Source: Bacteroidales bacterium
GTDB taxonomy: Bacteria > Bacteroidota > Bacteroidia > Bacteroidales > NBLH01
DNA: 64,000 nt
Reading direction: 5' to 3'
Assembly (NCBI GenBank): GCA_016937695.1
Contig: JAFGWC010000046.1
Location: forward strand, 62,001-126,000
The notes beneath the pieces were generated by a model. It ran no database searches, was not told where the DNA came from, and saw only the letters and a list, made by a program, of their open reading frames with translations. How positions within the stretch are numbered: position 1 is the stretch's first letter; every line of letters begins with the position of its first letter. Below are positions 14,827-17,720 of the stretch, piece by piece. The translations under genes and the position numbers were made by a program.

Positions 14827-16428
14827 TCAAAAATATAGAAATTTTACCAATTTAAAGGTTTTATTTTTATACAAAACAGGTAATTCGGTTTTTGTTTCGC
14901 TAAAAAGAATTATATACTTAAAGTTATATTTTTTCTCTAATTTTTTGATTTTTTCAGTATTAATATTTTTGTAATTATTTTCTAAATCCGTAAGTGCTTC
15001 AAAACCTGATTTATTGGTTTTTCCGTAGCAATTATCTATTCTGTTTTTCCATTCTTTCATGGCTAAATCGCTAAAAGGAAATGCTTTAAAATCGACAATA
15101 ACAGCTCGTTGTGCAAAAATTCTTAATTTTCCGAAATTTGGCGGACTTAAAAAAATATCGTTTTTATCGGTATTTTTAATAATAAATTCAAAAATTTTAG
15201 TTTCATCATCAAAATAATCGGATAATGAGAATTTGGGATTAAAATATTTATTGTTAAAATCAGAATTAAAATCAAATTTTAATTTATAAACTATTTTTAA
15301 TGATATTAAAAACGAAATTGAAATAAAAAGTATGTAAAAAATTATTTTAAATCTGTAAAAAATTATTGAAATTGTGTTTAAAATATTAAATCTGCGGAAA
15401 AATTTAAATAAAAAGCCTGAAATAAAAATTAAACTAAGCCATTTTAAAATGTTTAAATATCTGAATGTTTGAAGAGTTATGAATAATCGGGAAGGATAAA
15501 TTTCGACAAAAACATATCCTGAAATCAGTAAAATTAATATTGAAATTGATATGATTAAAATATGTTTTAAAGGATATTTGTTTTCAATCCAAATTATTGA
15601 TAATGAAGCTAATACGAAAAAAAATGTTGCTTTAATTATATCTAAAAACGAAAAAAAATGAGAAGGAATATAGTGATGCGGATGACGAAAATTTGCAATT
15701 ATTGAAATAAATTCGACATCTGATATTTTTTGTTTGGCAGAAATAAATTCGGGAATTATGGTTAAAAGCGAAAAAATGAAAAGAATTAAAGCGCTAAAAA
15801 AAACAGGTTTTATGTAATTTCGGATATTTATTTTTTCTGAAAAATTAATAATTATATAGCTTAAAATAAAAATACTGCCATATCCTAAACCAATTAAAAC
15901 ATGGAATATAGAAGCAATTCCGGCAATAAAGCTTGCTTCAATAATTTTATTTTTGATTAAAAACAGAAAAGACAACATTATAAGCGGAAATGCTATTCTA
16001 TCAGGCAAAAGAGCGTTTGCGGACATGATTTCATCAGAGCCTAAACTAAATGTGCTTACAAACATTACTAAAATTGCGGCTAAATATGCAATTGGCTTAT
16101 AATCAACAAAGTAAACATTAGAAACAGATATTGTTATTAATGAAACTGCAATGTTTGAAATTAGAGTTAGTGAAAAAAATATAATTGGAAGCGACAAAAA
16201 TCTGCCAAAAAAAGCAATAAAAATTGTGTAATAATATCGTGGTCCGAAACCACTTGTTGAATTAACAAAAAAGTCGTTTGTTAAATAACCGGAATTTATT
16301 TTTCTTAATATTATTGGAAGTTGTTCAATATGGTCAATATCAGCATAATAATAGCTTTTTAATGTTGCAATTAAGGCTATAAAAATAGAAAAGATTATAT
16401 GGTTTGGATTTATTTTAATTGATTGCAT
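14827..16428 (-). CDS. polytopic membrane protein, GT-C-like
   Basis: 533 aa with about 11-13 membrane helices, a long second-loop region (ADIDHIEQLPIILRKINSGY, NDFFVNSTSGFGPRYYY) and a soluble C-terminal part (about 400-533) with KNTDKNDIFLSPPNFGKLR and IFAQRAVIVDFKAFPFSD. This layout resembles GT-C lipid-sugar glycosyltransferases, and the DUF6798-type C-terminus is my best guess. It lies in a cluster with a GT2 enzyme and UDP-galactopyranose mutase, so a role in polysaccharide or glycolipid synthesis is plausible but not shown. Confidence 0.65.
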   Translation of the reverse strand: MQSIKINPNHIIFSIFIALIATLKSYYYADIDHIEQLPIILRKINSGYLTNDFFVNSTSGFGPRYYYTIFIAFFGRFLSLPIIFFSLTLISNIAVSLITISVSNVYFVDYKPIAYLAAILVMFVSTFSLGSDEIMSANALLPDRIAFPLIMLSFLFLIKNKIIEASFIAGIASIFHVLIGLGYGSIFILSYIIINFSEKINIRNYIKPVFFSALILFIFSLLTIIPEFISAKQKISDVEFISIIANFRHPHHYIPSHFFSFLDIIKATFFFVLASLSIIWIENKYPLKHILIISISILILLISGYVFVEIYPSRLFITLQTFRYLNILKWLSLIFISGFLFKFFRRFNILNTISIIFYRFKIIFYILFISISFLISLKIVYKLKFDFNSDFNNKYFNPKFSLSDYFDDETKIFEFIIKNTDKNDIFLSPPNFGKLRIFAQRAVIVDFKAFPFSDLAMKEWKNRIDNCYGKTNKSGFEALTDLENNYKNINTEKIKKLEKKYNFKYIILFSETKTELPVLYKNKTFKLVKFLYF

Positions 16429-16433
16429 TTATT

Positions 16434-16448
16434 TTTTTCACGCAAAGC
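16434..16448 (+). repeat. left inverted repeat flanking the GxxExxY gene
   Basis: TTTTTCACGCAAAGC; its exact reverse complement lies at 16896-16910. Two weaker units (AACAAAGAAC, AACGCAAAGTTTT) continue to the GxxExxY stop codon, the last overlapping it. Confidence 0.7.
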
Positions 16449-16478
16449 AAACAAAGAACAAGCTAAGAACGCAAAGTT

Positions 16479-16856
16479 TTAAAGGTTATTTACTATTCTA
16501 TGAATGTTATCTTTTAATAGTTTGCTGTTAAAGTTTATTAAAAGAGCTAATTTTAAGCCTGATAGTCTTAAATAGGTTAGAGTTTGGGCAAAATGAATAG
16601 GAGCTAAAGTTTCTACTGATTTTATTTCTATAATAACTTTATTATCAACGATTAAATCAATTCTGTAACCAATATCTTGTTTTACGTTTTTATAAATAAA
16701 TGGCATCGGATATTGTTGTTTTACATCTAATCCCATTTCTTTTAAATCGTATGCCAAAGCATTTTCATATGCTGATTCGAGTATTCCTGGTCCTACCGTT
16801 TTGTGTAATTCGATAGCTGCTCCGATTACTTTATATGAAATTTCATTTTCATTCAT
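16479..16856 (-). CDS. GxxExxY protein (PD-(D/E)XK nuclease-like)
   Basis: 125 aa, the usual size of this family. The signature G24-I-L-E27-S-A-Y30 lies in the first helix. A nuclease-like core follows: D67 in YRIDLIV, E77 and K79 in IEIKS, and Q91 in FAQTLTYLR, spaced as in PD-(D/E)XK enzymes. All presumed catalytic residues are intact. The biological role of the family is not established. It is bracketed by inverted CGCAAAG repeats and separates the GT-C-like gene from the GT2 and glf genes, which suggests insertion into that cluster. Confidence 0.88.
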   Translation of the reverse strand: MNENEISYKVIGAAIELHKTVGPGILESAYENALAYDLKEMGLDVKQQYPMPFIYKNVKQDIGYRIDLIVDNKVIIEIKSVETLAPIHFAQTLTYLRLSGLKLALLINFNSKLLKDNIHRIVNNL

Positions 16857-16895
16857 TTTTAATATTCTTTGTTATCTTTGCGAAACTTTTTGCGG

Positions 16896-16910
16896 GCTTT
16901 GCGTGAAAAA
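16896..16910 (+). repeat. right inverted repeat flanking the GxxExxY gene
   Basis: GCTTTGCGTGAAAAA, exact reverse complement of 16434-16448. Read on the minus strand, this flank holds further units CCGCAAAAAG, TTCGCAAAGAT and AACAAAGAAT ahead of the ATG. Confidence 0.7.
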
Positions 16911-16948
16911 CATTTATTTTTTTTCGAAACTTAAATATACAATTTATT

Positions 16949-17653
16949 TCAATTAAATCTAAATCTAATTGTTTGATAGAAAGATAATAATGCTGCTTTC
17001 AGTAATTTAAGTTTTTTTAAAGAAACTGTTCCTTCTTTTCGATTTGTGTGATTTACTTCTGTTTCAAAAATTCTGAGCTTTTTAACACAAGTTATTCCTG
17101 AAATAATTAGGTTTGGAGCAAATGTATTATCCGGAATTTTATTGAAAATTTCAGCAAAACTTTCGGTTCTCATAAGTCTGAAAGGCGAATTTACATCGTA
17201 AACCTTATTTCCATAAAAAATATTTACAGTAATTCTTGATAATGAGCTAATTAGCTTTCTTGAAAATGACTGTTTTTTATTTATTCTTTTTCCGATTAAA
17301 AAATCAAAATTTTCTCTTTTTTCCCATAAATATTTAAAATTTTCGGCATTTATTTCGTTATCAGAATCGGTTTGAAAAATCCACTTACAATTTATGCTGT
17401 TTTTGTATGCGTTTAAAATTGTAGAACCATGTCCGGAATTATTTTTATTATGAATAAATAATTGATTGTCAGTATTTTGCAGTTCGTCTAATATGTCTTT
17501 TGTTTTATCAGTTGACCCGTCGTTATAAATATGAAATTCGTATTTTATGTTTAATTTATTAAGCTCATTTATCCAACTTTCAACAGATTTGGGAATTAAT
17601 TTTTCTTCATTATAAACTGGCATTACAATAATGAGTTCAATTTTATTATTCAT
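16949..17653 (-). CDS. family 2 glycosyltransferase
   Basis: 234 aa from ATG 17653 (ten further upstream codons are open but cover a repeat array). A GT-A fold of the DPM1-like kind: IVMPVYNEEKLI at the start, YNDGSTDKT near 45, DSDNE (the DxD site) near 98 and the acceptor-side motif SPFRLMRTESF near 155. No C-terminal membrane anchor is obvious. It transfers a sugar from a nucleotide donor, often to a lipid carrier. Downstream of glf on the same strand, so a role in galactofuranose-containing glycan assembly is likely but unproven. Confidence 0.88.
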   Translation of the reverse strand: MNNKIELIIVMPVYNEEKLIPKSVESWINELNKLNIKYEFHIYNDGSTDKTKDILDELQNTDNQLFIHNKNNSGHGSTILNAYKNSINCKWIFQTDSDNEINAENFKYLWEKRENFDFLIGKRINKKQSFSRKLISSLSRITVNIFYGNKVYDVNSPFRLMRTESFAEIFNKIPDNTFAPNLIISGITCVKKLRIFETEVNHTNRKEGTVSLKKLKLLKAALLSFYQTIRFRFN

Positions 17654-17670
17654 TATTTTATTTTTTTTAA

Positions 17671-17720
17671 CCATATAAGGCATATAAGTTCATATAAGTT
17701 TTCTTATATTTTCTTATGTT
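17671..17720. repeat. 10-bp-period CATATAAG repeat array
   Basis: Three consecutive 10-bp units (CCATATAAGG, CATATAAGTT, CATATAAGTT) are followed by two inverted units (TTCTTATATT, TTCTTATGTT). It fills the gap between glf and the GT2 gene and could fold as an AT-rich hairpin. Probably an interspersed repeat. Confidence 0.65.

Follow-up and report, generated by a model that had tools for sequence, protein, structure and literature searches.

GxxExxY nuclease genes lie between repeats specific to their clade, in units that look like a minimal mobile element

GxxExxY proteins form a very widespread family of unexplained purpose. In the genome of a Bacteroidales bacterium, one such gene is enclosed by inverted repeats within a contig stretch of 64,000 nucleotides (hereafter the window, in whose numbering all positions below are given). 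Is this a host gene that happens to have repeats around it, or an element that moves, and if so, does its nuclease move it? A sequence-only reading of the window had favored a small selfish element encoding a nuclease, or one moved in trans. The locus has the following layout.

16434..16910, no strand assigned: whole unit, 477 bp between the outer edges of a perfect inverted repeat
16434..16448, plus strand: left terminal arm TTTTTCACGCAAAGC, 15 bp, a perfect match to the right arm
16896..16910, minus strand: right terminal arm GCTTTGCGTGAAAAA, the inverted copy of the left arm
16441..16447, plus strand: CGCAAAG unit, outer left
16470..16476, plus strand: CGCAAAG unit, inner left, directly past the GxxExxY stop codon
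16876..16882, minus strand: CGCAAAG unit (the plus strand reads CTTTGCG), inner right
16897..16903, minus strand: CGCAAAG unit (the plus strand reads CTTTGCG), outer right
16479..16856, minus strand: GxxExxY gene, 125 amino acids, stand-alone PD-(D/E)XK nuclease fold, the sole gene of the unit
16426..16433, plus strand: direct repeat CATTTATT, left copy, 8 bp, flush with the unit; the match extends to 16438
16911..16918, plus strand: direct repeat CATTTATT, right copy, 8 bp, flush with the unit; the match extends to 16923
14827..16428, minus strand: polytopic membrane protein with DUF6798, intact neighbor whose start lies at the left edge of the unit
16949..17683, minus strand: family 2 glycosyltransferase (GT2), intact neighbor

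Both structural features described earlier were confirmed: the perfect 15-bp inverted repeat bounds the 477-bp unit at 16434-16448 and 16896-16910, and CGCAAAG recurs in the flanks at 16441, 16470, 16876 and 16897, with all four copies oriented inwards. The CATTTATT direct repeat is 13 bp long in full (16426-16438 and 16911-16923), the extension being a T-run, and its left copy overlaps the start codon of the DUF6798 gene. A gene for UDP-galactopyranose mutase lies on the same side of the unit as the GT2 gene, and the DUF6798 protein is encoded on the opposite side. The unit was said to split a glycan gene cluster; the GT2 and mutase genes do lie on one side of it, but both flanking genes are intact and none is disrupted. 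Among 113 other units with an inverted-repeat score of at least 16, the median length was 521 bp (10 to 90% range, 464 to 700 bp).

According to the sequence profiles, the window protein is a full-length member of the GxxExxY/PDDEXK_3 family that passes the curated cutoffs, with E of 3.9e-42 and 143.3 bits against TIGR04256 (cutoff, 35) and E of 2.1e-39 and 135 bits against PF13366 (PDDEXK_3; cutoff, 22). Its E, D, E-x-K core is intact (E27, D67 and E77-x-K79, followed by Q91-xxx-Y95), so that the PD-(D/E)XK-like core assigned earlier to the only gene of the unit was upheld by both the profile matches and the residues. Across 240 relatives, E27 and K79 were present in 240/240 and D67 and E77 in 239/240, a conservation which indicates that the active site is under constraint. 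An AlphaFold2 model of the protein had a mean pLDDT of 96.1, and its top match among solved structures was Cas4 SSO0001 (4ic1; Z, 9.6; Foldseek E, 2.7e-3), with a lower match to the Hjc resolvase (1gef; Z, 7.1). The Q-xxx-Y motif is shared with the Cas4/lambda exonuclease/Hjc group. The window protein thus resembles this group in fold, but it differs from it as a stand-alone protein of 125 amino acids without an adjacent helicase partner in the window and without any PDB entry matching its sequence at E of 10 or below. Kinship was not accepted from fold matches at Z of 6 to 8, since many unrelated nucleases are found among them. No PADLOC defense model, a set covering known systems only, matched the protein at E of 1 or below.

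The inverted repeat of the window scored 15.5, a value equaled in 39 of 2,000 dinucleotide shuffles and reached by 1 of 412 placements of the same geometry within the window. When CRCHRAG units were counted over both 250-bp flanks of the gene, 0 of 2,000 shuffles reached the observed four. By itself, the inverted repeat is weak evidence in such an A+T-rich stretch; the family context is strong. The rest of the window genome held no second GxxExxY gene and no further CTTTGCGT...CTTTGCG pattern. A search for near-copies of the 14-mer at its end found 48, most with two mismatches, versus 33 for the reversed control, and these do not represent a second unit. With neither a further gene nor a CGCAAAG tandem of this pattern in this genome, the question was taken to relatives. 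The neighboring glycosyltransferase had no orthologue in the six other genomes of the genus.

Of the 296 class genomes sampled, 188 had GxxExxY genes. All 7/7 genomes of the genus had them too, at 25 places, one of which was below the family cutoff. Most flanks inspected in the genus hold iterated short repeats whose sequence differs from gene to gene, and inverted repeats scored 12 or higher at 9/20 loci there. Peptide patterns of the window type, scanned against named genomes, collected 80 loci, which by record title span many phyla (the structure alignment used 60 of these 80, rows with in-frame stops being excluded). With 220-bp flanks, 63/78 named loci scored 12 or higher for inverted repeats, versus 17/314 other open reading frames of the same loci; the high-scoring control frames included a second GxxExxY gene and several four-helix-bundle genes that have their own repeats. 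In 65/77 named loci versus 29/314 controls, CRCHRAG units occurred at least four times. In the class sample, which consists of top-scoring matches, 55/80 loci scored at least 12, compared with 12.9% of cross-paired flanks and 3/80 after shuffling. Direct repeats also reached this score at 36/80 class loci because some genes sit between two whole palindromes. We then pooled 254 loci, which became 240 after removal of proteins shorter than 95 amino acids, flanks shorter than 120 bp and identical proteins. An inverted or direct flank repeat scoring at least 12 was present at 197 of these 240 loci, versus 13 after shuffling. The earlier statement that GxxExxY genes occur near such repeats in many genomes is supported, at a rate far above the controls.

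The 240 loci were assigned by protein similarity alone to four clades, W (the window type; 152 loci), P (34), Q (22) and R (32), the loci of the other clades having been collected with members of those clades as queries. Flank repeats scoring at least 12 were common in each (W, 125/152; P, 30/34; Q, 14/22; R, 28/32) and rare after shuffling (8, 1, 2 and 2, respectively). Their sequences differed by clade. At least four CRCHRAG units were present at 115/152 W loci versus 0/88 loci of clades P, Q and R; repeated CGCAAAG was found at 62/152 W loci and repeated CACAGAG at 35, each at none of the others. Clade P has units such as AACACGGATGACGC, clade R has GCCACAGATTCACAGATT or GCCACGAATGCACGAAT, and clade Q has TTGTCTGAA and AATCCT types. 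Thus, the expected CGCAAAG-type repeats accompany clade W, but the three other clades carry other repeats. The CRCHRAG units adjoining W genes point inwards (84:20 and 56:4 upstream, 129:22 downstream), with spacing peaks at 8 to 11 and 20 to 22 bp. Thirty genomes hold both W and non-W loci, and in these at least four CRCHRAG units were found at 24/33 W loci versus 0/37 non-W loci; host background therefore does not explain the difference. Protein identity was also linked to shared repeats among pairs below 60% identity (r = 0.18; 0/500 permutations). Repeat type follows protein clade, and the pairing of repeat with protein holds. The simplest reading of these sequences is that each nuclease clade would recognize its own repeat.

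Do the repeats delimit something that is gained or lost as a block? Three junctions were compared in 16 Flavobacterium genomes; the flanking genes are presumably hemW, kynB, batD, batE and map, names that we assigned from the sequences. At site C, between map and a methyltransferase gene, 7 of the 16 genomes were empty or nearly so, with gaps of -4 to 30 bp, mostly as overlapping stop and start codons (G330 was counted by its TAATG junction). Three genomes had a W unit there, 2 had a unit that belongs to a different clade and has different repeats, 1 had a decayed remnant, and 3 were of another kind or unreadable. Site B (batD-batE) was identified in 14 genomes: 4 had W units, 6 had empty alleles of -4 to 5 bp, 1 had a gap of 38 bp and 3 retained short remnants of repeats. 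Of the 12 genomes in which site A (hemW-kynB) was identified, 7 had W units, 1 had an empty allele, 1 had a partial W site where the contig ends, 1 had a W-type palindrome without a gene, and 2 had a GIY-YIG gene with inverted repeats of its own; the additional contig L079 also had a W unit at this site. One class genome was left out: the Flavobacterium protein has about 60% identity with that of its genus, a different one. The units often provide the stop or start codon of a neighbor, and the flanking genes are intact. These empty, filled and remnant alleles show that units come and go whole and that different clades share junctions. Empty sites were thus found among Flavobacterium species, with about 0 bp between the flanking genes, and block presence or absence between the same genes bears out the repeats as the ends of the unit; none of the filled orthologous sites inspected was without repeats. 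The GxxExxY unit sits between genes as a discrete insertion.

Two further loci deserve mention. At one map-methyltransferase junction (L204), the right end of the unit enters the methyltransferase frame, giving a GTG start and changed first codons. In Hymenobacter daecheongensis (L077:4900-5480), the gene lies between inverted repeats that match almost perfectly over about 50 bp, possibly marking a recent insertion.

Repeats of this kind also occur without the gene. The CGCAAAGNNCGCWAAG pattern was present at least twice in 51/188 genomes with GxxExxY versus 3/108 without (Fisher's test, 1.4e-8, with kinship ignored), and at least five times in 32 versus 2 genomes; the reversed control gave 0 to 3 matches per strand. 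The repeats are therefore not equally common without the gene, the finding that would have spoken against a link. As hairpins in DNA, three gene-less palindromes had z-scores of -11.3, -12.3 and -6.1. The genome G113 has 240 pattern matches versus 2 GxxExxY matches, one of them below the cutoff. In the same genome (L138 and L447; G113:C1:255300-256217), tandem CGCAAAG triplets with a 48-bp period adjoin a GxxExxY gene with an in-frame TAG. Two genomes, G210 and G033, had 58 and 13 W-type repeat matches and no GxxExxY gene was found in them, which may reflect gene loss that left the repeats behind, or another mover.

The most informative gene-less copies were those of G031, where 21 copies of about 160 bp are scattered with a mean mutual identity of 79%. 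They match the ends of the resident W-type unit, L455, with about 88% identity across 78 columns of its right end and at 29/32 positions of its left end; their score against L455 was 52.5, whereas none of the 240 other loci scored above 26. The gene of L455 is flanked by two copies of GCAAAG, so that deletion between short repeats could yield the gene-less form; just as well, a gene-less form could have captured the gene. The gene-less copies reach outwards to a 12-bp terminal repeat, GTAACTACTCAG, which L455 is without. Just outside GTAACTACTCAG, 8 of the 17 copies that could be used had direct repeats of at least 7 bp (0.7% of cross-pairs), and 7 of the 17 had repeats of at least 8 bp (0.0% of cross-pairs). 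The members of this MITE-like family (L422-L434, L436-L438, L441, L394, L409, L414 and L419) have a W-type palindrome inside, forming a hairpin with a bulge of 16 to 17 nucleotides.

Gene-bearing units gave a different result. A general target duplication was rejected for them, as the observed frequency in 113 units equaled that of cross-pairs. Near-flush direct repeats of at least 9 bp were found at 3/168 units, with 0.35 expected, and the unit of the window is one of the three. Within 60 bp on each side, direct repeats of at least 8 bp occurred at 22/113 units versus 8.7 expected, at varying distances, and we read this excess as nested repeats. GxxExxY copies that share a genome rarely resemble one another closely, the best of 75 pairs having 85%, 70%, 70% and 64% identity, and thus no bursts of gene-bearing copies were seen. 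Searched by tblastn with the window protein, 8 of 72,556 plasmid records and 0 of 50,697 phage records held a window-type gene, and on these numbers plasmids and phages were rejected as vehicles. A copy on a Bacteroides finegoldii "plasmid" was set aside because this record carries genes of chromosomal type (radA, asparaginase).

How do these units compare with known systems? Free-standing homing endonucleases consist of one nuclease open reading frame whose insertion site is precise and also occurs as an empty allele. The GxxExxY unit is likewise a single nuclease gene with empty alleles, but its repeats lie in the unit ends, its sites are many and unrelated, and its repeat type goes with the clade. 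With MITEs, the G031 gene-less copies share terminal inverted repeats and 8-bp target duplications; they differ in that their inner ends match a PD-(D/E)XK gene unit and not a known transposase. A terminal inverted repeat flush with a direct repeat that may be a target duplication is present at the window unit, and such an arrangement is absent as a rule from gene-bearing units. The REPtron (RAYT/TnpA-REP) has a nuclease gene between cognate palindromes, gene-less hairpins and co-varying types (PMC8266576, PMC3116915). GxxExxY units share with it, in layout only, the flanking cognate palindromes and, in genomes other than that of the window, the dispersed gene-less copies, and in both systems repeat and protein types vary together. 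They differ in that the GxxExxY protein is PD-(D/E)XK by Pfam and fold whereas the REPtron enzyme is HUH, and in that GxxExxY repeats are arrays of 9- to 10-bp units, with processing by GxxExxY being putative. Because the defining HUH enzyme is absent, the GxxExxY unit is not a REP/RAYT member.

Another parallel is the intervening sequence (IVS) of the Coxiella 23S rRNA, which PMC4990558 presents as a selfish element of 428 nucleotides with an S23p open reading frame and a 28-bp terminal stem. A unit of about 430 nucleotides, a single small open reading frame, terminal inverted repeats and the term selfish (PMC4990558) are points of likeness. However, the GxxExxY protein (PF13366) is unrelated to S23p/IVP, the units lie between protein-coding genes and not in rRNA, and the iterated clade-specific repeats belong to GxxExxY units. 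By analogy, this minimal design may already be represented in the literature by the Coxiella IVS. Four-helix-bundle genes of the 23S_rRNA_IVP family (PF05635) were also seen between protein-coding genes with iterated inverted repeats of their own, such as ACTGAACACTAAAAACTGAACAC (L062:1004-1378, L080:3445-3774, L091:3255-3632, L102:3251-3622, L132:1650-1997 and others). An inverted-repeat score of at least 12 was found for 12/13 IVP/S23-like genes in the loci, versus 1 after shuffling, a count that is partly circular because the seeds were partly chosen for this trait, several having been control outliers. Similarly, a GIY-YIG gene with a single domain (PF01541) lies at the hemW-kynB junction in L209:1080-1364 and L225, where TTTCAGCATCTTT forms its inverted repeats, so that both GIY-YIG genes at site A (2/2) had such repeats. 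A description of GxxExxY genes or of their repeats as an element was not found in the open-access PMC literature searched.

Three other explanations were weighed. An 8-bp target duplication is the mark left by a conventional DDE-type transposase, and such an enzyme could move units and palindromes by their outer ends, with the GxxExxY gene and its repeats as cargo and the nuclease conferring a maintenance or homing-like advantage. The gene-less copies of G031, with outer GTAACTACTCAG repeats and 8-bp duplications, fit this explanation, and so do the flush 8-bp direct repeat at the window unit and the 3 of 168 units above expectation. However, most gene-bearing units have no duplication, the outer GTAACTACTCAG repeat was absent by eye from gene-less repeats in G180, G130, G035 and G210, and the tracking of nuclease clade by repeat type would be left unexplained. 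We consider such a transposase unlikely.

It is still less probable that the units act at the RNA level like the 23S rRNA IVS, with the protein incidental or acting on RNA. In such an element the ends of the transcript would pair and be cut by RNase III, making insertion into an operon harmless. The Coxiella IVS, whose terminal stem is cut by RNase III according to PMC4990558, is a precedent, IVP genes too have inverted-repeat units in these loci, and GxxExxY units were co-directional with both neighbors in 50/63 cases versus 93/163 control genes. On the other hand, the direct-repeat layout of the 36 class loci would form no such stem, the iterated 9- to 10-bp spacing suggests protein binding, and conservation of the catalytic core favors DNA as the substrate of cleavage. 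Strict conservation of the active site and low copy number would also suit a host gene with its own operator, its repeats serving autoregulation or a role in defense or repair, without any movement. This reading has to contend with junctions that are empty in some genomes and filled in others, with different clades at one junction, with dispersed gene-less copies and with the lack of a PADLOC match, and we regard it as quite improbable too.

A gene within its own repeats, repeats specific to the clade, and presence or absence as a block together look like an undescribed minimal mobile element. That the unit is a discrete element, mobile now or once mobile, is in our view highly probable. We lean slightly towards a minimal mobile unit of REPtron-like design, in which the nuclease of each clade recognizes its own iterated repeats. 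In this design, one PD-(D/E)XK (GxxExxY) gene would lie between inverted arrays of repeats of about 9 to 10 bp that are the cognate sites of its clade. The nuclease would bind its own arrays, probably upon palindrome extrusion or in single-stranded form, and cut there, and the unit, together with gene-less relatives having the same ends, would occasionally reach new intergenic places. Movement would be rare, and the survivors would be copies that landed between genes in the direction of transcription. For the part of the nuclease in driving mobility, our judgment is evenly balanced; GxxExxY proteins may also move the gene-less relatives in trans. The small selfish nuclease element of the sequence-only reading thus gains from the unit boundaries, the clade pairing and the gene-less relatives, and loses from gene copies that are seldom close (85% at best) and from the 8-bp duplications at the gene-less copies of G031. 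More tentatively, and with somewhat more doubt than belief, GxxExxY units could be a mobile-element class of their own across many phyla, each with a stand-alone nuclease that acts on its own iterated hairpin repeats and also moves gene-less relatives, and the IVP and GIY-YIG units, whose junctions are similar or even shared, could be parallel inventions.

With natural repeats now listed for four clades, the idea is directly testable. If it is true, many short repeats in these genomes that lack an explanation would gain an origin, and the pairing of nuclease clade with repeat would serve the study of how PD-(D/E)XK enzymes choose their DNA. GxxExxY genes would then be selfish units and not host genes.
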